NCBI GenBank assembly: GCA_921293015.1
Contig: OV121096.1
Location: 22,827,729-22,891,728, forward strand
Origin: Phorcus lineatus
Taxonomy: Eukaryota > Mollusca > Gastropoda > Trochida > Trochidae
DNA length: 64,000 nt
Direction: 5' to 3'
Position numbers and translations under genes: made by a program. Below the pieces are notes generated by a model. It did no database searches. It had not been told where the DNA came from and was given only the letters and a program-made list of their open reading frames with translations. Positions 15,279 to 63,927 of the stretch are shown piece after piece. The stretch's first letter is position 1; each line of letters starts with the position of its first letter.

Positions 15279-17882
15279 TTATTTAGCTGGTATGTTGCTG
15301 CTCTTCTGTGTTTGCATGTCCAGGAGACTGGTCATCAGTCTGTTCATCTGTTTCTCTATCTTCTCCAGTCTCTCGTCCATATTCTCTTCAAGCTGTCTCT
15401 GTCTGCTGGCCATCTCTGGAATACTATCCTGCAACAAGATGAATCATATTCTCAATCTATGCAGAAGAATATTGCAACTTTATCAGACTACTGTCTGATT
15501 GCCAGCTCGGGAATAATATCCAGCAATATTCTGAATTATATTCTTAATCTACATGCAAGAATCTCGCAACTTTATCAGACTGTTGTCTGCTCGCCACCTC
15601 TGGATTCTTCTCCTGCAACAAGATGAATATTATTCTGAATCTATATGGACATCCTGCTGAAACAGCATAAATGAATCCGCTGCGCTCCTTCCTTATACAC
15701 TGATCTTTTTCGGACTAAATCCCTTATATTGCTGGTGGCTTGATAATTGTGGCTATGCTCACTTGGGCCCGGATTCACCAAACTTCTAAGAATTTTCTTA
15801 AGCCCTAAGAATTCTTAAGACTACTTAAGTAAAAAAAGTAAGAACATTCTTAGATGTTTAGTAAACCAGCCTCTGTTATTTTTTCAGCCAATTAAATGTC
15901 ATTAATAAAGGAGCTTAAAGCTACTAGCTTGAAACCAACAGATTTTTTCTTTCGGGTTGTGGCCTTTTTGTGGCCAGTGAGTTGTCTCATTTGCTGGTTA
16001 GTTAGCTAGCGATATGAGGGTTTTGGCTTGAAAGAGATCAGTGTATTAGGAAGGAGCGAGAGCGGATTCATGTACGCTGATTTAGCAGATGCTATATGGA
16101 AGAATCTTGCACTTGTACTGTTGTCTGCTCACCACCTCTGAATTCATTTCCTGCAACAAGATGAATCATATTCTCAATCCCTGTGAAAGACTCCTGCAAC
16201 TGTATCAGAGATTCGAATACTTTCCGTAAACAAGGCATCCTCTGCTATGAACTGCTGGAAATTTTTTTAGACAACTCAGTATTTCTCAGACACCTTTAAA
16301 TAAAATTCCTGCAAAAGAACATTCAAGCTGATAATCTCAATAGATTCCTGCAAAAAGGTCATGCACGTTGTCAATATCCTCATTGAAGTTGTTTATTCCC
16401 CTTACAGACTCAGACGGTAACAAATCACATTCATAATACTTGAATTATCACTGATAACAGGTGATTCATTCACATTTGTTGATAATTGAATATGTGGTTA
16501 CGGTCCTTATAGCAGTAACGCAATACATGTCTATGACTCACCAGATTGGCATTTTCATCAGGTTCTACTGTTTGGTTCCACCACCAGAATGGCCAGCTTA
16601 AAAAACAATTCTTTGCTTTTTTCAGACATCCAGGTTTGTCTTCACCCATTGTGGAATCCTGGTCTCGTTTTATGTAAAGTTTTCCTCGCATTCTTTCAAA
16701 CAAAACCTTCTCGACATCAAGGACGAGAGCAATCTGCAGAATAGGAAATACATATTTATTTCCCCGCCTTACAGCGTAAGCGGGGGTATATAGCGTTCAT
16801 TCTGTCTGTCCGTCTGTCTGTCCATCAGTCACAAATCTTTGTCCAGAGCTTATCTCCTAAACTATACATGCTAGCTTCACCAAACTTCATACACTTATCA
16901 ACCATGATCCCTAGATGTGCCTTTTGAGGGTTAGACCAACAAATGATTTTTATTTTTTGCGGTTTCCGTGAAAACATGACTAAAACAGTGACTCTATGAC
17001 CAAGTCCTTTGTCCGGAGCATATGTCCTAAACTATACATGCTAGCTTCACCAAACTTCATACACTTATCAACCATGATCCCAAGATGTGCCTTTTGAGGG
17101 TTAGACCAACAAAAGATTTTTATTTTTTGCAGTTTCCATGGAAACAAGACTAAAACAGTGACTCTATGACCAAGTCCTTTGTCCAGAGAATATCTCCTAA
17201 ACTATACACGCTATAGCTTCACCAAACTTCTTACACTTATCAACCATGATCCCTAGATGTGCCTTTTGAGGGATAGACCAACAAATGATTTTTAGTTTTG
17301 CGGTTTCCATGGAAACATGACTAAAATAGTGAATTTAAGTCCTTTGTCCGGAGCATATCTCCTAAACACATGCTAGGTTCACCAAACTTCATACACTTAG
17401 CAACCATGATCCATTTGTGCGCCTCTTGAGGGTAAGACCATCAAGTGATTTTATTTTTTGCGGTTTACATGAAAACATTACTAAAACAATGACTATCTGA
17501 CAAACTGCATTTTCCTTAGCATATCTCCTAAACTATACATGCTAGCTTCAACAAACTTAATACACTTATCAACCATGATCCCTTAGAGAGCATTTTTAGG
17601 GTGAGACCAACAAAGAAAGCCAGACTATAGTTTGAAGCGGGGGTATGTGAGCTGTGCTCAATTCTTTACTTGTTCTGTTTGAATTTATGTAGCAACAATA
17701 TTTTTCTATCCAAAGTGACACATCGTTGTGCAGTAATAATGGTCTTTTAAAAAACAATAACTGGAATATTTTCCAGTGTAGGCATGACACCCAAATAGAA
17801 ATTTCAAACTTACATGCATCGCAGCCCTTTTAAACGCTGCTATTCGAAGTATGCCCTTGATATCGTCAACTGCCAAACCAAC
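15279..17882 (-). CDS. TRPA1: TRPA1-1 exons 28-30, TRP-like helix and coiled coil
   Basis: Exon 28 (17882-17814) reads VGLAVDDIKGILRIAAFKRA, the conserved segment right after S6. Exon 29 (16733-16542) reads IALVLDVEKVLFERMR then WPFWWWNQTVEPDE. Exon 30 (15428-15279) encodes a coiled coil (QLEENMDERLEKIEKQMNRL) ending NIPAK and TAA. In TRPA1 this coil forms the central four-stranded bundle of the tetramer. Confidence 0.92.
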
Positions 17883-20800
17883 CTGAAAGAGGCTTCATTT
17901 GATTATGCTTGCAACAAGTAATTTTATTATAAAATTGATTTATTCAATCAACAACTGCCATGGCATGGCAACCTCATACATAATAAAGAGGTTATATATA
18001 GTGCAAAGTTTTGTTTAACTTACAAAGTGTTTATGATTCAACCTGATAAAGTATGATAAACCATTGACACACTTACCAAACCCTTCATTTGTAAACTGAT
18101 AACTCTGAGCAAAAGATTCAAGAGAACACTACACATACCTACTTTGAGTGCCACGAGATCCATTATATAAGATCAAATACTGAGAGCTGCATGAGGACTC
18201 TTGGATTTAAATAAAGATCTCATGAAGATACTTCACACATAAGTGAAAGGATAGCAGTGATTCTTTTTATTTTCCAAGGGTCAACAGGCATACTTACAAG
18301 AGGTCCAATGGGCACATAACAGATATACCGAGAGGTTTATAAGGACACATAACAAACAAACCAAAATGTTCAATATAACTCGTAACAAACTTAGCAAGAG
18401 GTTCATAAGGACACATAACAAACGAACCAAAAGGTTCAATATAACTCGCAACAAACTTAACAAGAGGTTCATAATGACACATAACAAACAAACCAAAAGG
18501 TTCATTAAAACTAGTAACAAACTGACCAAGAAGTTCATAAAGGCACATAACTAACTTACCAAGAGTTTCTATAAGGACACATAACATACATATCAAGATG
18601 GTTCAAGGTTACACATAACTTTACAGACTTACTACATATCTACAAACAGGTTTCAAAGGACACAAACCTAAAAAAATAGGGTAATAAAGACACTTAGCAA
18701 CCTTACCAAGAGGTTCATAAGGACGATGCAGGCCAATGTGATGAAGAAGGAGAAGATGACAGAGGTTGCTGTAGGATATAGGAGATTGGTCGTGTCGATC
18801 ACAGTAACGTTGTCTACACCTCCGTTGAACAGATCATTGTAATCTATTTCCCCAAGGAACATTACCGCTGTTTTCAATATTGAATTTGGGATATCTCTGA
18901 AAGCAACCTTCAATAAAAAAAATGAGTTATTTTGAGTATTTTATGTTTTAAACCTAAATCTTTACAAATGATAACTAGGATTAGAAAAAATGGTTCTTTG
19001 ATCTCCATGCGCGTGATACCGTCAGTATGTCATCCTTTTTCTTTACATTGCCATGTATATGAAAAAACAAAGGGTAACTTGACTAAGATTAAAGTAAACA
19101 TTTTTAACAAATACAATACCTATATGCAAAATGAGACTGTTCCCAAAGTAAGGAAAGAAGAGTAAAAGTGTCAAATTCATGTCAGTTGAAAAAAATGGAA
19201 CCATGGGCTCATTAGCTCACCAGGCTGTAAACTTTATCACCAACTTCCGCCACGGAATGGCTAAATCTAAATTGCCTTTTATTTCTGGAGAAAGAGATGA
19301 CAATAGTTTTGGTAGGGCTTGGTACGTATGTCCTAAATGAGGGAAGACATGAGATGCCATCGAAACACCGTATCAACACTTGGGTACAATATATATTATC
19401 TGTCAGTAGATGACGAATAGTGTTAAGGGCGTAGTCAATTTAACCTCTATTAAGATTCAGAGAATAATAAAATCGTAATCAAGTAATAATCTTCATTGGA
19501 GAAGGAATCTATATGCAACACTTTTCTATAACCTTTTAATGGAGAGGAAAATGAAAATATGTTTGATTACACTTATTTCAAAATTATTTAGAGCCAAATT
19601 AAAATGTTTAATCCCCTTTGTAGACATGAGTTTAAATATCTAAGCCTTTTCGGAGAAATATATGTAAATATGTTTTGGAAAGATGCTGTGCTATAAGGTC
19701 ATCGAGCCCAATGAGCTCAAAGTATGTTTCTTAAGTTGACATAAACTAAGTTGACGAATCTGGTTCTGAAGTAGTATGAAAAATCCGAGTGCGAATGAAC
19801 AGAATTTAATTTCTCATAATTCAGAACAGTGACATAGAGAACAGTTAAATATGTTATATATTTACATATATATATATTTATATGTACAAATTGGAACATG
19901 AACGTCATGAACAGTGCACTTCCACCTAGTTTCTACTTAAACATTGCCAATTGCATGCATTAAATGGATTTTATTGCCGATAATGAAAGTAGATTTTTGC
20001 TTATCTTTTCTGAAGACAATTAACTTTTAAAAACAGTTCCCGATTGGAATAAAGTAAATGTAGATATGGTATGAAATAATGACACGAAGACATACCTGGT
20101 TCTGAAGCAGAGTGAAGAATCCCATTGCAAAAGCGAGGATGAGAGAGAAGAAGACGATGAAGACCTTGAGAAAGGTCCAGCAGACCATCTGGAACATGAT
20201 GACGTACAGACCCAGGGAGGTGAAGGCCTTCAGGTACATCACGAGGTCAATCCATGTGAAGAAGAGAGCAAAAGCTCCAACAGACCATTGCCAGTCCTGA
20301 GGGAAACATTGTGATAAGTTAGACCCTTAACAATGAACAGATGATTGATTTTTGAGTAGGTTGTATTGATATCAAAAAGATAAATATATTGCCAATAAGA
20401 TTTTCTGTTGTTTATTGGAAGTGGATTTTACAATTTCTATTACTTATGCAATTCACTATTTGTACTTAAGCCATGTAAGTCAGCAACTCGACCATGTAGA
20501 AAGAGGTCTAAAAGAGGGAAAAACACCTTTATTCAATTAACACCAATAAACTAAATCTTAGTTTAGAATAATCAAAATATGTTCTCTCTACGAATGCTTA
20601 ATCATTGCTGTATTATTATCGTATAACAGAGTTACAGTTCCCTGAACAAAATCAGATAAGGCCCCAGTTCCTGACCTACCTGTCTATAAGATGTTTTGAT
20701 TGTGCAGCTGTTGAAGTCAAGGAGAAAAAGGAAAGAAAAGACGTAAACGATCCAATCCACGTAGTTCTCGAATTCCCTGATGTATGCCCACTTCATGTTG

Positions 20801-23800: not shown

Positions 23801-26800
23801 CCTTGAGTTTAAATAGACAAAATTAAACCCAAACGACATTAAACGGAGAAAGGATACATAATTACTTTGGACATGTTCAAAAATAATTGATAATTAAATT
23901 GTACATAACGTCCGCACACAATGTGGATCAAAACAACGTTATAAACTTTAAGTTTTCGATGCCAAAATAATAATTTTGTTAAAACTCAATGTTTGGGAAG
24001 CAAAACATCTTCATCGAGCAATCCTCTGTACCTCTACATCAAACATTGTACATTCATTACAAATGATTTTTTTTCTATAAGCTACTACTGACGGTATTTA
24101 TCAATTATTTGAATTTGTATTTTCATGAGAATTACGTTGTAACGACCAGCTATCTTTGGTCATCAAATCATCTATGAACTCGTAGTTGTATTTGAACTTC
24201 TTTTTCGGCTTTATGGTTTCATCCTTCGGTTTCTTCGTTATATCTGTGCAACACTTGTCCATCACTTCCTTGGCAACGTCTTCGTTTTTATGAAAAAAGG
24301 AATTTAAGGATATCAGCAGCAATATCTTGAAATAGAAAGTTAGGAAATCATCTGAAGATTCATCATTCTGAATAATACCTTGATAATTGATAAACGCGAT
24401 CAAATTCCTTTTAAGAAAAAGATTAGCAAGGGATTATCATTTCCCTTGTTTTGGATACCTCCTAATTGATATCATACACCCGTATTGAAAGTTCAATCTT
24501 CAACTTCCAAAAACGTTCCGTAACAATTTTGTTTTTTTTCTAAAAGAGAAGACAGAACTTGTCAAAGGTAATCATGGAACAATTGCACATGTGCTTCTTT
24601 GAGAGTGAATGCAATGAGACTAGTCAAAGAGCTGTTATACCTATGGTCATCCAATGACTGAGATAAAACCAAATGGGAATGGAATTGTCGATAAAAATGC
24701 GTCCTAGGTCAAAATTAATATGAATAATATTTGTCATTGAAGGAATATTAACTTAGGACGTTTGGTCTTCGGCAATAAACCAAGACAAGTTTTACCTTAG
24801 AGAGCAAAACGAGTTTCTTATCGGTCTCATGGTAAATAATGGGGTGACATGATGTATTTGATAGGTAATTAAAACGTTGCTACACATATTTCTATTTTAA
24901 GCATGTTGTAGTGTGGGCCTCATGGCCATATATTCGGAATAAAATGTGCTAAAGATAGGAAAGGTTTAACAGATCAATGTACTAAACATACGACAAGTTT
25001 AGCAAATCAATCTACTAAACATATGAACAATTTAAAAGATCAATCTACTAAAAAGGACAAGTTTAATACATCAGCGTACTAAACGTGCGACAAGTTTAAC
25101 GTGTGAACGTAATTAACATACGACAAGTTAACAGGCCAGCACCTGGCATATCTCTGATCATCCTCCGCATGGGCGTGTCTATCTTCCTTGAGCCCGGTCT
25201 TGGCGGGACGCTGTTCCTCATGGCGTGAAGCCAGAAGTCAGACTGGATGATGTACTGCGCTATCTCTCTACAAGCATAGCAAGTGTCATGGTACACAATC
25301 TTCCTTATCCATTCTCTTATTAAGAACTTTTAAAGGGTCAGTAACACGTTTATTGACAGATTTTATAAATATTTCCCCAATAAACATTAGTGTATGCAAC
25401 ATGTAAAATAACTTCATTATCAAACCCAAACGTCCACAGTCGTAGGGGAAATAATAAAGTGTATATCAAAATGTCAGTTGCAGCCATTTTTCATCACCTT
25501 TAATTTGAGGCAGGGAATTGAATGGCATAGCTTAAACGATCATTTTACGGTCGATCAAAAAATTCTTCTTTTGATACAGAAACATTATCTTGCAATTGCT
25601 CACATGAACGTATCTTTATCTGTTTAAAAAAACGTGCTACAACCCCTTTAGGATTGAAAGTATTTTTCAGAATCAATATGATTTTCTATGTCATTTTCCA
25701 CCTTTAAACAGTCACTCTATACACATTTATCATCACTCATTCATCATTCAACAATAGCTCGAAGAAATCTTTGATGATCAGATTCCTGGTGTAAACATAT
25801 ATCATGACAATGATCTAGAAATATTGCCAGAGCTTTGGTCTACAGATCCGGGAATGAATGCTTACTTATTTTTGTTAAAAACAATTGATAATGATATTAG
25901 TATAACTGTATACATATAACTCACTTGTGCCCATTTCTGATTGCTACGTCCAAACAGTTAAGACCATTCTCATCCTTGAATTTGACATCATCAACAGTTT
26001 TCAGCAGCAGTTTGACAACTTTGAGGTGACCTTTAGCACAGGCCAGATGGAGCGAGGATACCTTTTTATATCAAAATTATCAAAATTAATTTTCAAATTG
26101 AAGTTATTTAATTTAGGTCCAAAGTGTGTGTCCAAGTTCATGAATAATGAAAAGGTCAATGTTTTCCAAATCAAAGACCACTGGGCGTTCAAGAGATATG
26201 AATATCATCAGCGTATCTTTTATTACAAAAGTTATAAGTTAGCCATATTGAACGTATTTCCAATCACATAAACACTTGACAGCATGCGTGTTGTTTATGG
26301 ACTGAGTGGCTAGTATAAAGTTTTATGTTTGTAACCAGAATTAAAATAGTTATAGTGGTTAATCCCTGTTGAGAAGAATCCTTCAACGTGTTCTTGCAAT
26401 TTGCATTTCTTGCAATTGTTTCCACAAAATGTGTCAATGTAGATAGAGGAATATTCACTTTATACTCTAAGATTATCAAATATTGGTCCTCAGTTTCTGA
26501 GAAAACATAAATAGTCCACCGTGGTGCTGTATATTGCTCAGATAATCTGTATCAGTAAAGAAACATCAGAACTGGTTCGCCAGATTGGTTGATTTTAATG
26601 CTGGATAAACTAAACGCTTGAAAGGTGATTCCCTGCCCTAAACCGAGACATGAATTGAGAAATTGTAGCTTCATATAGGGCATGAGACCTTATTAGTGAA
26701 AAGCAGCTTAAAAACCCCAAATCACCTCACCTCACCTTATTCGAAGTGCGCCTCTGTCCACCGAGCAGTACAATTGGGAACCTGGTTTGAATTGGCAGAG

Positions 26801-44379: not shown

Positions 44380-45800
44380 AATTTACATAATCAAGGATTA
44401 TTTATTATAATCTATGTTGTTGAGCAAACTGTTTTGCACTGATATTATAGATTGTTGATTTATCGGCAACATAGTATTGTTGAATTAAATTTAAAAAATT
44501 AAATTTATAAAATACAACTTTGTCAGCAGTTGATTAAACAAAAGGAGGGTGATCATAGAGTTTGAACCCTCTCGAAGGGAATAACCTGAGGTTAGCTTTC
44601 CAGAATGACCTTCAGAGGTGTTTAAGTCATCAGAAACTGTCATTGATGTATTAGAGATTATCATGTAAGTTAGGACAGCAAATGTCCTAGTAAAATATAA
44701 GTTTAGGTCTTGTGCTTTTGAAAGAAATCATAAAAAACCCAATTATGAATGATATTCAAATAAAAAAAGTTTAAACTAGATGATTTAAATCTTTAAAATG
44801 TTACAGTACAGTGTCTAATGTTCCAAAAAACAAATAAGACTCTCGATTTGTGAACCATAGATAGACTTTATTCAAAAGCAACATCATCCACTTGTAAGCA
44901 ACACAATATATTTAAAAAAAGAAAAAAGTCAAAGCAATAAAATACTAGATAATTCACATGCAATGGATAGGAAAGCAATACAAAAACATTCGCTGCTCAC
45001 AATATGAAGTGGCATCTCTGTAATGATTGGATAATGTACTGATTCAGACTTCTGGCCTGGTTGGGAATTGGTGGTAAGCAAAGGTTTAACAGTAAATATG
45101 TGTATACATAAGAATATCATAGATGACTACTGAAGAGTATACTGAACTACGAACTCATATCAGATCAAGTAGAACTACTCACTCATATCAGTTCAAGATC
45201 AAGTAAAACTACTCTCTCATATCAGATCAAGATCAAGTAGAACTACTCACTCATATCAGATCAAGATCCAGTAGAACTACTCACTCATATCAGATCAAGT
45301 AGAACTACTCACTCATATCAGATCAAGATCAAGTAGAACTACTCTCTCATATCAGATCAAGATCAAGTAGAACTACTCTCTCATATCAGATCAATATCAA
45401 GTAGAACTACTCACTCATATCAGATCAATATCAAGTAGAACTACTCACTCATATCAGATCAAGATCAAGTAGAACTACTCACTCATATCAGATCAATATC
45501 AAGTAGAACTACTCACTCATATCAGATCAAGATCAAGTAGAACTACTCACTCATATCAGATCAAGATCAAGTAGAACTACTCACTCATATCAGATCAAGA
45601 TCAAGTAGACCCACTCCCTAATATCAGATAAAGATCAAGTGGAACTACTCACTCATATCAGATCAAGGCGAGCTAAATGGAAATGTAAACGGATATACTA
45701 AATGGTTGTCCTGTTGTCAGAGGCACGTTCATATTTCATAAATATTTTATATTGAAAATTAGAATTTTTATACAGTGTCAGACCAAAAATTAAATCAATA
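44380..45800 (-). repeat. Third, partial copy of the TRPA1 3' flank
   Basis: Blocks at 44,390-44,700 match 12,740-13,080, and blocks at 44,755-45,120 match 14,400-14,770 (GATTATTTATT, GTTGAGCAAACTGTTTT, ACATCATC near GTAAGCAACAC). The middle part is missing. It lies directly before the full second flank copy, so the locus has had more than one duplication or a partial deletion. Confidence 0.65.
45141..45666. repeat. Minisatellite, 34/28-bp units
   Basis: About 17 units of AGAACTACTCACTCATATCA + GATCAAGATCAAGT, some lacking one GATCAA step. The single-copy ancestor is visible in the sister flank at 48,603-48,640 (GAACTACTCACTCATATCAG then ATTGAGACGAGC), and the last unit here runs into the same GGCGAGCTAAATG context. 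Confidence 0.85.
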
Positions 45801-49363: not shown

Positions 49364-50410
49364 TTATTTGATTGGTATGTTGTTGCTCTTTTGTGTTTGC
49401 ATGTCCAGGAGACTGGTCATCAGTCTGTTCATCTGTTTCTCCATCTTCTCCAGTCTCTCGTCAATCCTCTCCTCAAGCTGTCTCTGTCTGCTAGCTATCT
49501 CTGGAATTATATCCTGCAACAAGAAGAGACATATACTCAATCTATATGGAAGAATCCTGCAACTTTATCAGATGCTATTGTCTTGCTATCTCGGGAATAA
49601 TATCCTGCAACAATAAGAGACATTTCTTTGATCTCTATAGAAGAATCCTGCAACTTTATCAGACTGCTGTCTTCTTGCTACTCTTTGGAATAATGTCCTG
49701 CAACAACAAGAGACATATTCTCAATCTCTGATATAGACTCCTGCAACTTCAGAGATGCTGATAATATCCCTTAGCAATAATCCTGATACAGACCCCTTGA
49801 AATACTTGAGACAACTCAATATTTCACAGACGCCTTTAATCTCTGGAACATGATGCCTGCAAATTGATTCACAATTGTTTACTATTGAATATGAAATTAG
49901 CATCCTTATAATGGTAAAGCAATATTTGTGTGTCTATTACTGACCAGAACAGCATTTTCATCAGCTTCCACTGTTTGGTTCCACCACCAGATTGGCCGGC
50001 TTATGAGATAATTCCACAGTCTTTTCAGACATCCAACATCATCTTCATCCCTTGTATAATTCTTGTCTCGTTTTATGTAAAGCTTTCTTCGAATACTTTC
50101 AAACAAAACCTTCTCGACATCGAGGACAAGAGCAATCTGCAGTAGAGGTAATATGAAATAATTTTTTCCGTTAGAATATATGTAGCATCAATATCTTTAA
50201 GTCCAAAGTGACACATCTTTGTGTAATGATAATGGTGTTATTTATCAAGAAAAATAACTTGCAAGTTTGCCTTGTGTAGGCATGACATCCAAATACTAAC
50301 TGAAAAAATACGTAAATAGATTTATGTCACTTCAAACTTACATGCATTGCAGCCCTTTTAAACGCTGCTTTTCGAAGTATGCCCTTGATATCGTCAACTG
50401 CCAAACCAAC
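49364..50410 (-). CDS. TRPA1: TRPA1-2 exons 28-30 equivalents, C-terminus
   Basis: 50410-50342 (VGLAVDDIKGILRKAAFKRA), 50136-49945 (IALVLDVEKVLFESIRRKLY then RPIWWWNQTVEADE) and 49513-49364 (coiled coil QLEERIDERLEKMEKQMNRL, ending NIPIK and TAA). The donor of the middle exon is GTCAGT where copy 1 has GTGAGT. Confidence 0.92.
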
Positions 50411-53400
50411 CTGAAAGAGGCTTCCATTGGTTATGCTTGCACAAAGTTATTTTATTATGAAGGATTTATTCAATCAATAACTGGCAAGTACACATCCCTT
50501 ATACATAATGAATGAAAAATGAGTTTATAGGTTCAAGAGAACACTAGCCATAACTACTTTGAGTGCCACGAGATCTCTGAGATCATATACAGAGAGCTGC
50601 ATGAGGACTCTTGGATTTTGATAAAGGGTACGTGAAAAAACTTGATACCTAAAGGATCAAGAGGTAGGAAGGCATGTTTTATTTTCCAAGCGTAAACAGT
50701 CATTACTTTATCCAAGAGGGCACACAAGGGACTTACTAAAGGTTCATAAGGACACACATCAGACTTACCAAGATGTTCAAGAGGACACATAACATACCTA
50801 CCAAGAGGTTCAAGAGGACACATTACATACATACCAAGAGGTTCAAGAGGACACATTACATACATACCAAGAGGTTCAAGAGGACACATTACATACATAC
50901 CAAGAGGTTCAAGAGGACACATTACATACATACCAAGAGGTTCAAGAGGCCATATTGCATACCTACCAAGAGGTTCAAGAGGACACATTACATACCTACC
51001 AAGAGGTTCAAGAGGACACATTACATACATACCAAGAGGTTCAAGAGGACATATTGCATACCTACCAAGAGGTTCAAAGAGGACATATTGCATACCTACC
51101 AAGAGGTTCAAGAGGACACATTACATACCTACCAAGAGGTTCAAGAGGACACATTACATACATACCAAGAGGTTCAAGAGGACATATTGCATACCTACCA
51201 AGAGGTTCAAGAGGACACATTACATACCTACCAAGAGGTTCAAGAGGACACATTACATACATACCAAGAGGTTCAAGAGGACGCATTACATACATACCAA
51301 GAGGTTCAAGAGGACACATTACATACATACCAAGAGGTTCAAGAGGACACATTACATACCTACAAAGAGGTTCAAGAGGACACATTACATACCTACCAAG
51401 AGGTTCAAGAGGACACATTACATACCTACCAAGAGGTTCAAGAGGACACATTACATACATACCAAGAGGTTCAAGAGGACACATTACATACATACCAAGA
51501 GGTTCAAAAGGCCATATTGCATACCTACCAAGAGGTTCAAGAGGACACATTACATACCTACCAAGAGGTTCAAGAGAACATATTGCATACCTACCAAGAG
51601 GTTCAAGAGGACACATTACATACCTACCAAGAGGTTCAAGAGGACACATTGCATACATACCAAGAGGTTCAAGAGGACATATTGCATACATACCAAGAGG
51701 TTCAAGAGGACATATTGCATACATACCAAGAGGTTCAAGAGGACACATTACATACATACCAAGAGGTTCAAGAGGACACATTACATACATACCAAGAGGT
51801 TCAAGAGGACACATTACATACATACCAAGAGGTTCAAAAGGCCATATTGCATACCTACCAAGAGGTTCAAGAGGACACATTACATACCTACCAAGAGGTT
51901 CAAGGGTACCTATGACAGACTTACCAAGAGGTTCATAAGGACGATGCAGGCCAGTGTGATGAAGAAGGAGAAGATGACAGAGGTTGCTGTAGGATATAGG
52001 AGATTGGTCGTGTCAACCACTGTAATGTTGTCTACACCTCCGTTGAACAGATCACTGTAGTCAATTTCTCCAAGGAACATTACCGTTGTTTTCAATATTG
52101 AATTGGGGACATCTCTGAAAGCAACCTTCAAAAACACAAACCAGTGAGTTAGTTATAATTATATATTTTAAACCTTAGCTTTAACTTTAAAATAGGTTTG
52201 ATAGCACTTGTTACAAAGTTATTTGGAGCCACAGAGTCACCTTATTAAAATTTATAACCCACTTTGAAGACAAGAGCTAAAATACCTTGGCCTTTCGTTC
52301 TGGATAAATATATGAACATTTCTTTTGGAAAGACGCCATGCCATAAGGTAATCTGGTCAGATAATCTATAAATATGTTTGTTAAGTTGACATAAAGTAAA
52401 TTGACAAACCTGGTTCTGAAGTAGAGTGAAAAAGCCGAGTGCGAAGGCGAGAATTAACGAAAAGAAGACGATGAAGACCTTGGCAAAGGTCCAGCAGACC
52501 ATCTGGAACATTATGACGTACAGACCCAGGGAGGTGAAGGCCTTCAGAAACATCACAAGGTCAATCCACGAGAAAAAGAGAGCAAAGGCTCCAACCGACC
52601 ACTGCCAGTCCTTAGGGAAACATAATATAGTAATAAGTAAGACCCTGGATTTTATAGTAGTTTTTATCGATAAAAAAGATGAATAAATTACCAATAAGAC
52701 TTTTTTTTTTTAAGTGGAAGTGTTTTTTTAATTTTTTTAATTGGTTTTGCAATTTACTATTTGAAATTAAGCCGTGTCAGTCAGCAACTTCGCCATTGAA
52801 GAAAAGATGTAAAAAGAGAGACGAAGTACATTTTTTTTACTTTAACACCAATAAAAATAATCTTTGAGAATGATCAAGATATTTCTTTCCAAAAGGTGGG
52901 ATGAATGCTAAATGATGCAATCAGCATTTGGTATAGTTGGTTTTGAATTGCTCTTGTTTTTGTTTTCATCCTTGTGTCTTAAGCTCTTTCATATAATTGT
53001 ATACACATATATTTTGTGGACAAGTGTTGGTTATTTTTTCAAAGAAGATCAGTTTGAGAGACTTTATTCTCAAAAAGGGCATTATATCGGCTCTCATTAG
53101 TAGCCACAACTTTTTCACAGTTTCAAGAATCCAAGTTTCAAACTATATTTTTTGTGTGGACGTTAGAATTGTTATGCCAGGTCAAAAAAGGAAAATACAC
53201 ATAACAGGGTTATACTGCAGAGTTGCCATTGGCGTATTATTATCGTATTAAAATATTCTATGTCCCTTATCAGAGTCAGATAAGGCTCCTGACCTACCTG
53301 TCTATAAGATGTTTTGATTGTGCAACTGTTAAAGTCGAGGAGAAAGAGGAAGGAAAAGCTGTACACGATCCAATCGACGTAGTTCTCGAAGTCAAAGAAG

Positions 53401-56400: not shown

Positions 56401-59400
56401 AAGTATGTTTACTTATATAAGTATATTTACTCCTAATGAGCAAATTGGTCATGTGAACGCATTTGCCTATATGGGCAAATTTGCTACCGTAGTAAATTTA
56501 CTTCACCTCAAAAGGTATAGTAAAAGCAAATTTGCTTATATGCAAATTTACCTATATAAGTATTTGTGTCATGTGAAAGCAAAATACATTTGCATATATG
56601 AGCAAATTTGTTTCTTCATATCTAAAATAAGTAATATATTGCATGAATTCAAAAAAAGATATTGTGTTGTGAGCTTTGTTATGTAAGGCCATCTGCTGAA
56701 TGACATTTTGAGTTTAAGAAACTAATTGGCGGGACAGAAATGAATTGAAAAGGAGGAACTCTTGGACTGATGATGATATTGGAGACATTGCTGTCCATAT
56801 GGAAGGAACATTGAAGAGCAATTGGAAGATCCAAAAAGAAATAGCTCAGCCATTTATCATCGTATCTCTACAGCTATGAGAAGTCATGGGATTGACAACA
56901 GCAATGCAAAAACCGGATGAATACACTCATTTCGTGAGTGCAAGGGATAACATCGTCATCCTCTGTATCCACTACATCTGCTGGTACCTATGGTCACAAA
57001 CAGCTTGTAGAATCACTGAGTAAATCGCCCTTTGATTCAGGTTGTCGACATGGGCATTGTCTGCAGCGATGATAGAAATATTGGTTCATTCAAGCGCCCT
57101 CACACTAATAGGAACCCATGATTCAAACGGATTCAAATCGTTTGAGACATATTTTGTCAAAATTGTCTCCGCTATAGCATCATACACTTCCCGAACATAT
57201 TTCAAGACCGTTGACTTGCCGACAAACAGATTTCCCATGGTCCTGTATTCAGCCAAGCAAGCAAGCTACTAAACTGTGAATCTAGCATATAGCATCTTTG
57301 CTAGATTGTGTAGTTTGATTACAGTTCAGGTTCCTGTTCACGACACAGATGTGATCTCGGTTTCACCAAAGTCAACTCTCTTGAATAAGTACTATGACAA
57401 AACTAGTACCAAAGAAAGAAGAAAAAAAAAAACGCATTTTGCATGCCAAGGTAGTATTTGCATCTTCAAGGCTCAAGGGAATACAGTGATAAGAGAAAAA
57501 ATTACAAATACTTATACAAGCAAATGAGTGTTGCACCTGCAACGTTTTTGCCATGTGAACGCATAGTAAATATACTTTTACTCATATACTCAAATATGCT
57601 TTTATAAGCAAATTTACTCATATGAGTAATTGATGGCATATGAACAAGGCCTAAGTCAGAAACGTAATTTAGGATCAAGCAAATGCATGAACAAGATATA
57701 CCTCTGATTGAGCACAATTTACAGAATAACAGATTGAATGAGGACCAGGTTTACCTGTAAAGGTGTGGTGGTTTGGTGACGATGACGTGTCGAGTGAGGA
57801 GGATAAGGAAGAAGATGTGGATGAAGAAGGTAAACAGGTAGTAGTAGCCCCCGAAACTAAACCATTTGAACTTCACCAATGTCCTCACGAGGTCGTGCTG
57901 CAGCAGTTCCTTACGTTTGTGTTTAACCTGTATAATAGAATTTTTCATCTTTGTTATGAGGAACTGTTATCCTATATTCATATAGAGGTTCTTATTGACA
58001 AAATACTTTCTCCTTTTTTTTACCTGACATCTCATCTTACAAAGGTCTATGATACCACCATGAGGTCAAACGATGTCCGTCACTTTGTCAGGCAACAGGG
58101 TTCTTGACTAGCATAGTAAAAATCGACTGGTCATAGAACATTTTAAAGATTCAGAGGATTTACCAAATGGAAACTTTGCCGTATCACGTTTTTTGAAAGA
58201 TTTATTTATTAAAATTCTCCCAAATAAACAATTCTGAATGCTAAATGTAGGGTCAAATCATCTTATTACTCAATCCGATCATCGTAGAAGAAACCTAAGT
58301 TTTTCAGATAGTTTGGTAAATATGCATACTAGACACCTACTTCCTTAGTAACAATTTCACAAAGGTAATTTGGCGGATAATGTTTGACCAACCCTTCTTA
58401 CAGTAACTTGTTTCTGTGTTCTTAGTGCTAGGATCTGCAATTGTCAGTGCACGGGCGCTTGCTTTTCCATGGTCATCTTATCTAATAAGTTCCATTATTT
58501 TCGCTTTTTCTAAGGATCAGCATGGAGTCTGGTGTTTCTATGGCTACTATCTGTCTTGGTTCATCCTGTCATGTCCACACGTCCAATCCAACGACTGAAC
58601 TATGGAGTCATCTTTCAACCAACGACACAGCTGTTCTTGGCAACTGAATATTGGGTTCATACTTATGAGGTCAAGCTACCCAATATCCCAAGCATTCCAA
58701 CAATGAGTGGCTGTCACAAAGGAAATGATGACTGTGCTCTTTTAAACCAATTCCAGATGCATCTAAATGTTGTAAAGACAAAATGCATAACTCAATTAAA
58801 TGCCACACGGAATCAAATTATTAAATTGGTTCCAGAATCAAGGATTCCTTCTACAACTCGTTCAAAACGAGCTATTTTAGGTTTTGTAGGGTCATTGTCA
58901 AAGACATTGTTTGGTACCGCAACAACAAATGATGTCAATATTTTAGCACAGCATATCAACGCTCTAACCAAAGTTGAAAATAACATGGCAAACACACTGA
59001 CACAACATGCTGCTCATATGTCATCCTTTATGAAAGTCGTTGATAAACGTTTCAAAAATGCATTAAAAGGTATAAAAGAAAATCATGATGCAATTCGGTT
59101 TACAACCATTGCTTTAGAGAAGAATATTCAGTCTATTAGATCACTTCTGGTTACTCTAACCTCTCTTTTAATTGACCAAATTGAAAAAGCATCAATTTTA
59201 GAACACCAAATTGAAGAATTCAAATTAGGCATGTACGATTTAGTAAAGAATAAGTTATCCCCCTTAATTGTACCCCCAGAAGTCCTCCAGCAAACAATTG
59301 ATCATATATCAAAAATTCTCTCCAAAGATCATCCATCATTTCGAATATTGCACTCTTCCCCGAGTTATTATTTTGCCCAGGGTAAGTTTGTCTTCACTAG

Positions 59401-62400
59401 GTCCAAAACCAATGTCTATATTTCACTCAAGTTTCCAATATCCTCCTTGACCCAACCATATGACATGTACAAATTATTATCCATGCCTCTGCCCATAAAT
59501 GATACATCAACCCATTCCACTCAACTCTTGGACTTACCGGATTTCCTTGCCATCTCACATGACAAACAGCACTATGTAGAGTTATCTAGTTCTGTCATTT
59601 CGTTATGTTCAGGTGATGACAAAACTCTTCATTGTCCTTTCAGAGTTGCACTTCATTCTATGACAAAACCATCTTGTTCACTAGCTGTCTTTCAAAATAA
59701 TAAACATCACGTCAAAACTATCTGTGACTTCCGCTATATCACTGCACCACAAGCACCACAAGTATCTATGATAGATTCCTCTCATATTCTAGCATATAGA
59801 CAACCTCTTCTTCGTCTCGCCTGTCCTGATGGTCATCGAATGATAAAAGGTTGTTCATTTTGCATCATAGAAATTCCTTGCTACTGTTCTATTGCAACAG
59901 AAGAATTCTTTTACCCTGCAGCATTCTCATCATGCAACAATTCTTCGCAGGACATTTCCCAACTTTTCCCTGTCAACCTTGCCTTGCTGCAACAATTCTT
60001 TGATTCATCCGCTCTTACAACTATTAAAGGTGATACAACATTTCAAAAGGCAATAAATTTTTCTATTCCAAATTTTAAAATGTATACACATCAAATATCA
60101 AACGTTTTAGCCAATGATAACAAAGCACATCTTAGTCTTAAACGTATTGCCAATAGTGCCAAAAACGATGAAACTATATTTCAGACAATGGCAGAACCTA
60201 TCTTAGATGGCACCATTCCTGTGGACTCTTCCTGGTTTTCTATCAATTCATTAGTTGCCATCGTCTCTGGCATGTTCTCTATGATTACTCTATCCCTTGT
60301 TATCTGGATGTTCTTTAAAATCAAAGCGCTATCTGCGGCTATCATACTTATCACACGCCCAGACGCAGTTAAAGCTGTTCTTCCTCCAGAACTTATGTAC
60401 ATTCCCTCAACTACTCCTGCATCAGGATTAGTATACTTTGTTCAGAATAATCTTTCTGACAATATTGTTTCAATCCTTCTTGGATTATTATGTGTTTTGC
60501 TTTGTGTTGTTCTGTTAGTCTTGTATCGTATTCATTTCTCTCACCCAAATGGACTCATGTTAGAATTAACAACAAAGACAGAGTGTGTCACTGTATTTAT
60601 TACACAACTTTCACTCTGCCCAACACATTACGATTTCGAAGCTCCCTTTACCGCCAATAACATTAAAGTAACTGGTACACTCTTTCCCAAACTTTCTGTA
60701 ACTTGGCAGGAGTTTACTATTAAAAACAAATATTCGAATAGATCCTTGAATGTGCCAGATGTCATTGACATCTCCATCTTTCAAGCCCGAAAAATTAGGA
60801 AAATTATATCTCAACAATTTGATGCATATGTCCTTTTAATGCACAATAGAATGTACACTGTCCTCAATAAACACCATGTTTTACATCTAGCATAAATACG
60901 GGCAAGAACGATCTGAGCAATACATCCATATGTATAAACAATGTCATTTCATGTATTCATGTTTTTTATATTGCTTTGCTTATAACCTTCTATTCTTTTT
61001 TTTTTTGTATATTGTATTTTATACATGTATCTTTCATTCAAAGTCACTTGGTCTTCTTTTTCTTAAGAATGCTTTTGAGGACAAAAGCTCCTCGAAGCCA
61101 TAGGGTACTATCATAGATCTCTATTTAGGCATATATTTTGTATATTTTGTAAATAATATTTTCTTCATAATACGCTCAGGTTATGTCAGTAAGTGACTCT
61201 TAGATAATCTCATTGCGCATACAAACACCTATTGTTTTGATAAAGTGCCGCTAGGAATTAGCCAGCCGGCGTGCCTGAAGCGTTCCAATTAAACAATGAA
61301 AGTCTGATTTAACTGAGCTAACCATATGTCAATTAAAGTAATTACAAAGGACTCAATGGACTGGCCAATAGACAGGGAAGTGTCAGTCTCAATAATTAAT
61401 TGCGATGTCTGATACGGTAACGGGTATATATAGTACCTCAAACTTTGAACCGTCATATTAAAAGACTCGCTTTAACTGACGCTTCTCTCTGGTTTATTTA
61501 AGGTAAGCTTACGTTCATTCATATTGTTTCTTTGAATATTTAGGTTAGCATGTGCTATTGTTATTAATTTCTTTACTTTGCATAAGTTATCTTGTATAGG
61601 TTCAGATTATGTTAGAGACCATATTTAGCAAAGTGACTTATTTGTAACGAAGATCATTTATACAGTTTTTGCATTGCATTATCGAATGAATGTCAAGTGC
61701 ATAGGACTCATGCGTATTGAGCATCATTTATGTTGTATTTAGCAAAAACCACTTCGGGTCAATTTTGAGTGAATATACCTTTTGATCATTCGAGACACGG
61801 AAGTTAATTCGTTAAGCGTAACCAATAATGATCCATTTGTTCTAAAACTGCCTTTTTTGGGTAAAATTCAATTTACTGCCCTTGAAAACCTTTATTTTCA
61901 TTTTCGTGAGATCACTTTATATATCTAGAACAAGCTCAAGTCGCAAAAGCCTCCATTTTCTCCTATGCCAAGCTTACCATGATCTCCAGAGGGTGGTTCT
62001 TCTTCAGCACTCCTGCCCTATCTGTGTACGCAGCGTATTCCTTTGTCTTCCGCGGTTTCCCGTCTTTCCTTGCTTTTCATGCAAACAAAACAACATTTAA
62101 TCAACTAAACTTTTGATTTATTGATAAATTATTTTGCAATTCACCTTCGGACATTTTCAGATTCACCCATACGATAATTTCCATCTTTGTACCTGTTATC
62201 CAACAGAATCATGTATAAGTTCAAACTGACAAATAACTTGGATCTTCTTGCCTAATGTTACATCTCAATTTTTGGGCAAAACATATTTCATCGAGCTTTA
62301 AAAAGGTACTCTATACCTCAAAGGGGTAAACTCATTTCGCATACCTTATACATTCATTAAAAATGGATTTTTTTCTAAAAGCTAATAATGACGTATTGCT

Positions 62401-63927
62401 AAAATGACATTTTCAGGTCCACATTGCTGCCTCTAGTTACTACAGTTCAAATGCTGGTAACAAAGGGATGATCAGTTTACATCACATAATTCCAAAAGGA
62501 GTTTCAGAAAAAGAGAAACATGTTTCAAGGCGAGAATGTGAGTCATTCAAAAGAAATACCCCAATTAATAAAAGTAAAGAATTTAAATAAGATAATTAAG
62601 AATAAAGAAGAACGTTCGATCATCAACACTTGAACGTTACGCGTACGTTGTAACGACCAGCTGTCTTTGGTCATCAAATCATCTATGAACTCGTAGTTGT
62701 ATTTGAATTTCTTCTTCGGCTTTATGGTATCATCCTTCGGTTTCTTCGTTACATCTGTGCAACACTTGTCCATCACTTCCATAGCAACGTCTTCGTTTCC
62801 ATGAAAATTTAAATTAAAGGTTATCAGCAGTAATATCTTGAAATAGAAATTTAGGAAAGCAGCTGAAGATTCAGGATTCTGGATATGACTTTGATCGTTG
62901 ATAAACGCGATCAAGTCCCTTTAAAGAATAAATAAGCAAGGGTATTATTATTTTCCGTGTTTTGGATACCTCCTTCTGGACATCATAAATCTGTTTGTGA
63001 AAGGTCAATCTTAAACTTTAAAAAATGTTCCGTAACAAGTTGTTTTTTCTAAAAGAGAAGACAAAACTTGTCAAAGGTCTACTATGCTCATAAAGCAATT
63101 CCACATGTGCTTCTTTGAGCGTGAATCTATTGAGACATGTAAAAGAGTTGTTATTTCTATGGTAATCCAATGGCTGAGATAAAACCAAGGGGATTGGAAT
63201 TGTCGATAAAGATACGTCCAGGTCAAAATTCACCCCCTACAAGTTTTACGTTATGAATAAGCATATGAGTTACATTTGTCATTGAAGGAATTTTTACCAA
63301 GGACGTATAGTTTAGGCAATACCAGTCGCTGATCATAATTCAAGATAAGTTCTACCTTATAAGAGAACAAAACGGGTTTCGTATCGGTCTGTAGAAAGTA
63401 TGCTAAATAATGGAGTGACATGAAGCATTGAACAGGTTATTTAATCGCTGCTATACTTATCGTATATCTTAAACATGTTGTACTGTGTGCCTCATGGCTA
63501 TTAGGTCAAGTTTAACAGATCCATGTACTAAACATACGACAAATTTAACAGATCAAACTACTTAAAATGGACAAGCTTAACAGATCAACGTACAAAACAC
63601 AGGACAAGTTTAACAGATAAACGTACAAAACACAGGACAAGTTTAACAGGTTAAAATACTAAAAATGGATAAGTTTAACAGACGTAAGTAATAAACATAA
63701 GACAAGTTTAACCAATGAGTTCACTAAAATTCAGACAAGTTAACAGGTCAGTACCTGGCATATCTCTGATCATCCTCCGCATGGGTGTGTCTATCTTCCT
63801 AGAGCCGGGTCTGGGCGGGACGCTGTTCCTCATGGCGTGAATCCAGAAGTCAGACTGGATGATGTACTGCGCTATCTCTCTACAATCATAGCAAGCTTCC
63901 TGGTAAACTATCTTCCAGATGAATTCA
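49364..63927 (-). CDS. TRPA1: TRPA1-like cation channel, copy 2 (3' half; continues past the window)
   Basis: Eleven exons match exons 20-30 of copy 1 in length and phase: 63927-63755, 62790-62647, 62072-61978, 57927-57755, 53947-53818, 53432-53298, 52610-52410, 52125-51925, 50410-50342, 50136-49945, 49513-49364. They give 553 residues plus stop, covering the pre-S1 linker, S1-S6, pore and coiled coil. There is no frameshift or premature stop, so the copy looks functional. The ankyrin half must lie beyond 64,000. It is head-to-tail with copy 1. Introns are longer than in copy 1 because of transposon and envelope insertions. Confidence 0.93.
49514..49760 (-). repeat. Repeats of the last-exon 3' splice site, copy 2
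   Basis: Half-units of about 46 bp alternate between TTGTTGCAG+GATATTATTCC and AAAGTTGCAG+GATTCTTC. TTGCAG or TGCAG words occur near 49,514, 49,555, 49,603, 49,648, 49,697 and 49,740 (minus strand). Each carries an AG acceptor and an imitation of the first 10-20 bases of the last exon; all but the real one reach an early stop. Confidence 0.7.
50730..51924 (-). repeat. 33-bp minisatellite copying the exon 27 donor, copy 2
   Basis: About 36 head-to-tail units, on the minus strand GTCCTCTTGAACCTCTTG followed by GTATGTATGTAAT or GTAGGTATGTAAT. The first part copies the end of the S6 exon (GTCCTTATGAACCTCTTG) and the second its GT donor. Central units are nearly identical; those at both ends keep TTCATAAGG like the exon. 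A 34-bp unit at about 51,072 shifts phase. Since 33 bp is 11 codons, long open frames appear on both strands; they are not genes. Confidence 0.92.
51925..52610 (-). CDS. TRPA1: TRPA1-2 exons 26-27 equivalents, S4 to S6
   Basis: 52610-52410 encodes S4-S5; 52125-51925 encodes the pore (MFLGEIDYSDLF) and S6 (SVIFSFFITLACIVLMNLL). Filter and gate are the same as in copy 1. The donor GTAAGT at 51,924 is followed at once by the large 33-bp array. Exon read-through would stop after VSLS. Confidence 0.93.
53298..53947 (-). CDS. TRPA1: TRPA1-2 exons 24-25 equivalents, S2 and S3
   Basis: 53947-53818 encodes the loop and S2 (AEKVLMYVLMVIGAVFE, identical to copy 1). 53432-53298 encodes INMRWAYFFDFENYVDWIVY and S3. 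The S1-S2 loop differs (DDAKNIKEDNCGAL here). Confidence 0.92.
54749..56366. mobile_element. PIF/Harbinger-like transposon, element 1
   Basis: The left terminal repeat TTAGGCCTTGTTCACATGCC is at 54,749; the right end (GTAATTGCTGGCAT) stops at 56,366, where element 2 begins, with about 15 bp of the repeat missing. Subterminal regions are packed with AGCAAATTTGCTTATATAAG-type palindromes. It holds a broken transposase (minus) and a possible SANT-like fragment (plus; RRNSWTDDDIGDIAVHME near 55,130). It sits in the intron between the S1 and S2 exons of TRPA1 copy 2 and is absent from copy 1. Confidence 0.8.
55259..56040 (-). pseudogene. Harbinger-type DDE transposase remnant
   Basis: Reading the minus strand from 56,040 downward, in several frames: TAFDILCRELEPEL, then a segment like RTIGNLFGGGKSTV, then NIRLSRARMTIERTFARLKG and RWRCLQ, then CEMHREEF. 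The order and the LSRAR..IER.FARLKGRWR block are typical of PIF/Harbinger (HARBI1-type, DDE_Tnp_4) nucleases. Frame changes and in-frame stops show that it is inactive. Confidence 0.75.
56367..57654. mobile_element. PIF/Harbinger-like transposon, element 2
   Basis: Begins AAGGCCTTGTTCACATGCCA at 56,367 and ends GAACAAGGCCTAA at 57,654, the inverse of the left end of element 1 (27 of 29 positions across the terminal repeat). It repeats element 1 with internal deletions, including most of the IER.FARLKG region. The pair is in direct orientation. Confidence 0.78.
57755..57927 (-). CDS. TRPA1: TRPA1-2 exon 23 equivalent, S1
   Basis: KHKRKELLQHDLVRTLVKFK then S1 with FSFGGYYYLFTFFIHIFFL. Differences from copy 1 concentrate in the first half of S1 (IGIPYYLC against FGGYYYLF), which is also the most divergent part of the membrane domain between the copies. 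Confidence 0.92.
58071..58293. other. Left flank of the envelope insertion (TRPA1-2 intron 22)
   Basis: Intron sequence homologous to 23,170-23,430 of copy 1 (GACTGGTCA, TTTATTTATT, ATTCTCCC). It serves as the reference for placing the insertion border. No coding sequence. Confidence 0.6.
58490..58514 (+). promoter_or_regulatory. Probable 3' splice site of the env message
   Basis: A pyrimidine-rich tract (ATTTTCGCTTTTTCTAAG) ends in AG at 58,512-58,513 preceding GGATCAGC; the frame stop TAA overlaps the site (58,511-58,513). The env frame is open only downstream of it, as expected for a spliced env transcript. Confidence 0.5.
58514..60895 (+). CDS. Intact envelope (class I-like fusion) glycoprotein of retroelement origin
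   Basis: Open from 58,514 to TAA at 60,893-60,895 (about 793 codons). Layout: hydrophobic leader (LVFLWLLSVLV, from about 58,529); furin-type site RSKR (58,859-58,870) followed directly by a Gly/Phe-rich fusion-peptide-like segment (AILGFVGSLSKTLFGTA); helical heptad region; Cys-rich region (CPDGHRMIKGCSFCIIEIPC); membrane segment at about 60,251-60,316; a second at 60,464-60,526; a tail of about 120 residues. Cleavage plus fusion-peptide pattern resembles baculovirus F and insect errantivirus Env (Baculo_F family). The first in-frame ATG is at 58,571, after the leader. The leader is included only if an upstream exon provides the start. Whether it is expressed or domesticated is unknown. Confidence 0.85.
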   Translation, partial: GSAWSLVFLWLLSVLVHPVMSTRPIQRLNYGVIFQPTTQLFLATEYWVHTYEVKLPNIPSIPTMSGCHKGNDDCALLNQFQMHLNVVKTKCITQLNATRNQIIKLVPESRIPSTTRSKRAILGFVGSLSKTLFGTATTNDVNILAQHINALTKVENNMANTLTQHAAHMSSFMKVVDKRFKNALKGIKENHDAIRFTTIALEKNIQSIRSLLVTLTSLLIDQIEKASILEHQIEEFKLGMYDLVKNKLSPLIVPPEVLQQTIDHISKILSKDHPSFRILHSSPSYYFAQGKFVFTRSKTNVYISLKFPISSLTQPYDMYKLLSMPLPINDTSTHSTQLLDLPDFLAISHDKQHYVELSSSVISLCSGDDKTLHCPFRVALHSMTKPSCSLAVFQNNKHHVKTICDFRYITAPQAPQVSMIDSSHILAYRQPLLRLACPDGHRMIKGCSFCIIEIPCYCSIATEEFFYPAAFSSCNNSSQDISQLFPVNLALLQQFFDSSALTTIKGDTTFQKAINFSIPNFKMYTHQISNVLANDNKAHLSLKRIANSAKNDETIFQTMAEPILDGTIPVDSSWFSINSLVAIVSGMFSMITLSLVIWMFFKIKALSAAIILITRPDAVKAVLPPELMYIPSTTPASGLVYFVQNNLSDNIVSILLGLLCVLLCVVLLVLYRIHFSHPNGLMLELTTKTECVTVFITQLSLCPTHYDFEAPFTANNIKVTGTLFPKLSVTWQEFTIKNKYSNRSLNVPDVIDISIFQARKIRKIISQQFDAYVLLMHNRMYTVLNKHHVLHLA
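61140..61740 (+). promoter_or_regulatory. LTR-like segment downstream of env
   Basis: GGGTATATATAG (TATA box at about 61,425-61,433), ATTAAA at 61,457-61,462 and a strong donor AAG|GTAAGC at 61,502/61,503 follow in the order expected of U3-R-U5 with a leader splice donor. The right end coincides with the end of the insertion. The left edge is not defined. It may be the 3' LTR or an LTR plus leader left by deletion. Confidence 0.45.
61978..63927 (-). CDS. TRPA1: TRPA1-2 exons 20-22 equivalents, linker before S1
   Basis: 63927-63755 reads EFIWKIVYQEACYDCREIAQ then TPMRRMIRDMP; 62790-62647 reads VAMEVMDKCCTDVTKKPKDD and a Lys-rich segment; 62072-61978 reads TKEYAAYTDRAGVLKKNHPL. Lengths of 173, 144 and 95 nt equal those of copy 1. 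The GAAG acceptor of the middle exon is conserved. About 70 bases of intron follow to the window end. Confidence 0.9.

Follow-up and report, generated by a model that had tools for sequence, protein, structure and literature searches.

A minisatellite of exon–intron junction units behind the S6 exon of clustered TRPA1-like genes in the snail Phorcus lineatus

How does an intron come to open with dozens of copies of its own 5′ splice site, and what might these copies do to the gene that carries them? The question is raised by a 64,000-nucleotide stretch of the genome of Phorcus lineatus (GenBank assembly GCA_921293015.1, contig OV121096.1, positions 22,827,729 to 22,891,728 of the forward strand), which we call the window and in whose coordinates features are given unless stated otherwise. 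Here, a TRPA1-like gene on the minus strand, P2, continues from the end of its S6 exon directly into about 1.2 kb of 33-bp units. An initial annotation, made from the letters alone, had described this repeat as a minisatellite of about 36 copies of the exon–intron junction that grew from the junction itself. We found that the same junction is repeated in six clustered paralogs, P2 included, and that the intron is older than the array, and we consider the array to be probably a tolerated passenger.

A repeated junction behind the S6 exon

The S6 exon of P2 (exon E9, 51925..52125, minus strand) ends on the minus strand with GTCCTTATGAACCTCTTG at 51925, and the intron opens with GTAAGTCTGTCATAG from 51924. 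The authentic 5′ splice site, GTAAGT, lies at 51919..51924 (minus strand), with an in-frame stop 12 nt into the intron. Tandem Repeats Finder (TRF) placed the 33-bp junction array at 50740..51942 on the minus strand (period 33, 36.4 copies, 93% matches), while our own count along the minus strand gave 37 units, the exon's own junction included. Thus, both the copy number given by the initial annotation and its claim that the array begins at the real donor agree with our results. The next exon, E10 (VGLAVDDIKG..., 50342..50410, minus strand), lies downstream of the array, and the intron that holds the array is 1.5 kb long.

Each unit consists of 18 nt resembling the exon end followed by 15 nt resembling the intron start, as expected from the earlier description of about 18 exon-end bases plus a GT donor. 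An in-register GT is present in 35 of the 36 units past the real junction, and only the remaining unit, at the far end, is without it. Among these 35 array donors, GTATGT and GTAGGT each occur 17 times and GTAAGT once. The array had been proposed to be homogenized in its center and exon-like at its ends; this was confirmed by the presence of CTTATGAAC both at the real junction and in the last unit, as opposed to CTCTTGAAC at the center. The 37 units fall into 16 types, which differ at many positions. The P2 array therefore shows three features of the minisatellites known as mirages, namely, units that span a boundary, splice signals within the units, and a homogenized center with divergent ends.

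The identity of the host gene was assessed by structure, domain, and protein comparisons. The joined exons of the window match the TRPA1 structure 6wj5 with E = 2.2e-36, whereas the P2 S6 exon alone gives weak matches (TRPA1 chain, E = 0.11; Pfam Ion_trans, E=0.0009, under the curated cut-off). We assign this exon to S6 because the joined exons match TRPA1 and because TRPA1-like proteins of Haliotis, the closest proteins found (50 to 55% identity), span the junction: seven of the eight Haliotis rows examined read LMNLLVGLAV across it without interruption. The coding part of the unit encodes VLMNLL, a stretch also conserved in other molluscan TRPA1 proteins, and the NLL[VI] stretch is present in 113 of 127 homologous proteins fetched. 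A search found 112 Ion_trans matches in the genome. Among the best 120 database rows, COX1 of this genome (C74) is 99% identical to Monodonta labio and to a Trochidae cluster and 100% identical to a cluster labelled Gastropoda, in line with a top shell (Trochidae) as the most likely host.

Six clustered paralogs and the age of the array

When the protein sequence of the S6 exon was searched against the genome, eight places were found, six of them in one cluster and two distant. Within the cluster, the channel exons of P1 to P5 were mapped one by one, while P6 (locus L012) is encoded on the opposite strand. The last 29 nt of the S6 exon are identical in all six paralogs, which lends weak support to an unusual invariance (p ~0.04, 10 codons). 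Beyond the exon end, the real S6 donor is GTAAGT in P2, P4, and P6 and GTAAGG in P1, P3, and P5. In P1, also within the window, the S6 exon (E9) occupies 18707..18907 (minus strand), and TRF together with the boundary scan described next detected a degenerate 33/66-bp junction array behind it at 18292..18605 (minus strand).

At each of 100 boundaries (both ends of 10 introns in P1 to P5), we took a 30-base stretch spanning the boundary and searched the respective intron for copies of it. The scan covered the channel exons E1 to E12 of the five paralogs and not their ankyrin exons; a candidate exon, "E4", proved to be conserved, non-coding intron and was removed before boundaries were counted. 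Copies were accepted at 22 or more of 30 matching bases, a value above anything seen in shuffled introns, which never exceeded 21. Copies of the S6 donor reached this threshold in all five paralogs (5 places in P1, 35 in P2, 8 in P3, 6 in P4, and 3 in P5), and so did copies of the acceptor of E12, the last mapped exon (3, 2, 1, 2, and 1 places, respectively). For the P2 S6 donor, the best intron copy matched 24 of 30 bases, as compared to at most 20 in 60 shuffles of the intron. None of the remaining 90 of the 100 boundaries had a copy of at least 22/30, the highest value being 21 at the P5 E2 donor. In P6, where only these two boundaries were scanned and without shuffles, the S6 donor was matched at 22 places at the same threshold and the E12 acceptor once, at 26/30. 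The S6 junction is thus repeated in five genes neighboring P2 as well, giving arrays behind six separate S6 exons in total.

The order of events can be read from genes inside and outside the cluster. The two distant homologues, L039 (55% identical) and L040 (38%), have an intron at the same position, which opens with gtgagt and is followed by an exon encoding VGLAVDDIK. Neither intron contains an array, their best junction copies reaching only 19 and 16 of 30 bases. Therefore, the intron is older than the array. Within the cluster, P6 is the outgroup, with about 80% exon identity, and one of its units, GTCCTTATGAACCTCTTG GTAAGTCTGTTATGT, reproduces the 18 exon-end bases exactly and keeps GTAAGT as its donor. 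Together with the confinement of the repeat to the cluster, as far as the searches reported below reach, these observations support the origin by junction duplication that had been read from the window. The simplest interpretation would be a single origin, in which the array arose before the six genes of the cluster diverged.

P4 is the sister of P2, with 98.4% identity across eight exons and 284 of 303 aligned bases shared in the array-free part of the S6 intron, yet P2 has 36 array units and P4 only 8 to 10. Thus, the array changed its length recently, either by growth in P2 or by shrinkage in P4. The P6 array contains both donor contexts, GTAAGT and GTAAGG. We also considered whether an array unit had replaced the real donor, but this was not retained, because the tree does not reject a clade of P1, P3, and P5 (approximately unbiased test, p = 0.37).

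Decoy donors and competing explanations

To describe the potential of the array donors as decoys, we calculated pairing energies with the 5′ end of U1 in a locked register and without modified bases. In P2, the real donor pairs at -9.1 kcal/mol, decoys of the GTATGTAT type at -7.2, and decoys of the GTAGGTAT type at -10.7. At the level of sequence, this supports the earlier claim of dozens of decoy 5′ splice sites in a row; of the 35, 17 equal or exceed the real donor in their pairing with U1. Decoys of such strength number 1 of 8 in P1, 2 of 10 in P3, 6 of 9 in P4, 1 of 7 in P5, and 7 of 22 in P6, as selected by a script filter that admits a few sites beyond the arrays; the P2 total was corrected for this from 36 to 35, while those of the other genes are uncorrected. 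All six paralogs have an in-frame stop 12 to 36 nt past the real donor, so that splicing at a decoy would terminate the protein just past S6. The GT itself is retained in 84 of 97 array units, counted as units matching at least 19/33 with the junctions left out (85 of 98 before removal of one P2 hit beyond the array; only P2 was checked for such hits). By gene, before that removal, the counts are 8/12 in P1, 36/37 in P2, 9/10 in P3, 8/8 in P4, 4/6 in P5, and 20/25 in P6, and no purging of decoy GTs is seen among the 97 units of the six genes.

Recursive splice sites are juxtaposed AG/GT motifs that are conserved among relatives, and they resemble the 17 TAG/GTATG sites behind the S6 exon of P2. 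In contrast to such sites, the motif occurs twice in P4, once in P1, and not at all in P3, P5, and P6, and the P2 intron measures just 1.5 kb. The conservation expected of recursive splice sites is thus not seen. Separately, an AATAAA motif is present just past the S6 array in all four genes examined, at ~50681 (minus strand) in P2 and likewise in P1, P4, and P5. Together with the in-frame stop, this motif might allow a message to end early, or it could be a chance occurrence in AT-rich DNA.

We favor the explanation, with a rough probability of 0.72, that the array is a mirage-type minisatellite whose junction was duplicated in the ancestor of the six genes and that it is now a tolerated passenger without a needed function. 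A 33-bp stretch over the S6 exon/intron junction (18 exon and 15 intron bases) would have been tandemly duplicated in a pre-existing intron. The array would then have grown, shrunk, and been homogenized, presumably through slippage or through unequal exchange, and the recent change of length would have taken place either in P2 or in its sister P4. The authentic donor, which stands first in the row, would mostly be used and the array spliced out as intron. A message spliced at a decoy would gain a stop codon and be truncated or degraded.

Several points weigh against this explanation. The use of the first donor is assumed, and given that 17 of 35 P2 decoys are predicted to be strong, their silence would not be guaranteed. 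The array has been kept by 6 of 6 genes over about 20% exon divergence, perhaps longer than a pure passenger would persist, depending on the rates of loss. Repeated origin, or exchange among paralogs, may be an alternative to a single origin. Last, one Haliotis protein, P0060 (annotated isoform X4), is without the S6 stretch; its alignment to a sister protein stops before S6, for which a real isoform and a gene-model fault are both possible.

The main competing view grants the array an effect on splicing, with U1-binding decoys competing with the real donor and the length of the array tuning the output of full channel from each paralog. The strength of the P2 decoys, the early stop in all six paralogs, and the retention of GT in most units speak for such a role. 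However, few decoys match the real donor in P1, P3, and P5, and amphioxus mirages are reported with normal splicing in the papers cited below. In addition, none of the 127 homologous proteins has a repeated NLL[VI] stretch or terminates within about 25 residues after it, although protein sets would hide such messages. We therefore consider an effect on splicing unlikely. Also unlikely is its extension, in which the arrays would act as a length-coded dimmer: to judge from the decoys and the stop, the share of productive splicing would be set separately in each paralog, a fast change in length would let the expression of individual genes drift or be selected, and an array unit could replace the functional junction, leaving the protein unchanged or nearly so. 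It is also improbable, though conceivable for so long and homogeneous an array, that the junction duplication is genuine but its assembled length partly a product of the assembly. Such arrays are hard to assemble, and the 36 units of P2 stand against 8 to 10 in its sister; on the other hand, 16 unit types among 37 and arrays behind six separate S6 exons argue against an artifact.

The two remaining explanations concern the origin of the array, and we regard both as very unlikely. In a Rogers-type scenario, the intron itself was born from the array, when a coding stretch that included a donor was duplicated in tandem. Every unit indeed has coding bases and a donor, but both distant homologues of the same genome (2/2) have the same-position intron without an array, which led us to reject this scenario, and the intron holds no copy of its own acceptor, the best matches being 15 to 17 of 30 bases in five paralogs. 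The other explanation is a dispersed satellite that settled by chance beside the S6 exon. The region does hold other minisatellites, some with units of 33 to 34 bp, and a common genome-wide satellite is what the initial annotation had named as evidence that would overturn its reading. In the genome (958 Mb in 74 contigs), a 29-base unit pattern had 26 exact matches, all 26 in the TRPA1 cluster (22 in the P2 array and 2 each in P4 and P6), as compared to none for the reversed pattern. This pattern is blind to the diverged arrays of P1, P3, and P5, and equally diverged copies elsewhere would escape it. A segment of the array, used as the query of a DNA search, returned at least 21 pieces, all 21 of them on contig C37 between 22.846 and 23.123 Mb and within the cluster. 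Both searches can overlook strongly diverged copies; as far as they reach, every match lies inside the TRPA1 cluster, and the dispersed satellite was rejected; the evidence that would have overturned the initial reading was thus not found. The conservation of the encoded VLMNLL in molluscan TRPA1 also speaks against it.

Other arrays of the cluster and known junction repeats

The second repeated junction is the acceptor of E12, which is copied in 6 of 6 paralogs, as a single copy of at least 22/30 in P3, P5, and P6; TRF detects an array there in P1 to P4 only. The copies contain the pyrimidine tract, the CAG, and the exon start. In P2, the acceptor-side array (period 91 bp) lies at 49484..49760 (minus strand), and two decoys, whose exon-like starts lie at 49604 and 49697 and which each carry CAG, precede the real start at 49513 by 91 and 184 bases; read-through from them meets stop codons. 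The corresponding array of P1 (period 92 bp) is located at 15399..15644 (minus strand), with copies at 15612 (CAG) and 15520 (AG lost) and a separate copy at 16150, so that AG is lost in one of three copies.

Arrays of 32 to 33 bp also begin 6 to 108 bases behind the E1 donor in 5 of 5 paralogs. In P2, a 33/98-bp array (63502..63750, minus strand) begins 6 to 44 bases past the donor, and in P1, a 33-bp array (24943..25100, minus strand) begins about 44 bases past it, with the exon end outside the unit in both genes. When the first 30 bases of the intron were compared with its remainder, matches better than in 100 shuffles were seen in only two of the five paralogs (P3 and P5), and in P1, the exon end is matched once, at 15/20 bases outside the array. 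Because the exon end is absent from the unit, the E1 arrays were not counted as junction arrays. In P5 only, three identical 29-bp copies lie a few bases into the intron behind the E2 donor (C37:23,038,042-23,038,128; cluster 210314-210400), perhaps a young donor-side array.

Other repeats of the region lie away from these junctions. A 34-bp array (TATGAGTGAGTAGTTCTACTTGATCTTGATCTGA) is found behind the 3′ end of P2 (15 copies, 45155-45667), within a partial repeat of the gene's 3′ region, and behind the 3′ end of P3 (30 copies, L015 near C37:22.914 Mb); no exon boundary was found at it. A 170-bp array occupies 16837-17614 in P1 intron 10, with similar units before the P5 S6 exon and between P3 and P4, and a 9-kb array of 191 copies of a 48-bp unit lies beyond P5 (C37:23,048,687-23,057,780; cluster 220959-230052). 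The window further contains two open frames on the plus strand. One, of 793 aa (58514-60895), sits inside P2 intron 3, has no Pfam match, and appears to resemble an envelope-type retroelement protein; the other, of 584 aa (7488-9242), is host-exon-like in appearance.

Repeats of this kind were reportedly described, and called mirages, in a 2002 paper on amphioxus Adh3. They have been proposed as a source of new introns. In two later papers (PMC3087553, PMC3902484), amphioxus mirages are described for Adh3, the globins BflGb6 and BflGb9, and TnC, along with splice-boundary repeats in PGBD5. As here, both 5′ and 3′ boundaries can be affected, the ends escape homogenization, and the copy number varies. 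The BflGb6 mirage has 3 and 6 units in two haplotypes as described there, as compared to 37 in P2. The Adh3 data and globin reverse transcription polymerase chain reaction suggest normal splicing with mirages in amphioxus, according to PMC3087553, and PMC3902484 restates this for Adh and TnC. More generally, the choice between competing donors depends on their strength, their spacing, and the proteins bound, as stated in PMC5585400.

The snail arrays differ from the amphioxus mirages in belonging to a mollusc and in repeating the same two junctions in six paralogs. Human genes in segmental duplications offer another parallel: in PMC2812944, recent paralogs carry minisatellites with units of about 30 bp, some at exon/intron boundaries as here. 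There, boundary repeats are said to cause new introns, whereas the snail intron predates its array. The Rogers model, as cited in PMC3087553, duplicates an AG/GT segment and likewise involves coding bases with a splice signal, but it yields a new intron, while the snail array sits in an older one. No mollusc mirage was found in our literature search, which left subscription papers mostly outside, and no such array appears in passages of two gastropod gene-structure papers (PMC3862624, PMC7931591) and of an amphioxus VCBP paper (PMC2632668). Thus, the kind of repeat is already known from amphioxus; new are the phylum, a number of units higher than reported in the literature found, and the series of six genes.

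With donor arrays ranging from about 6 to 36 units in six paralogs, and with one donor and one acceptor junction repeated, the cluster provides a graded natural experiment on how the spliceosome chooses the true site from nearly identical ones nearby. In addition, the arrays were apparently retained over several gene duplications within an intron that predates them, a point relevant to the proposal that such repeats are a nursery of introns.
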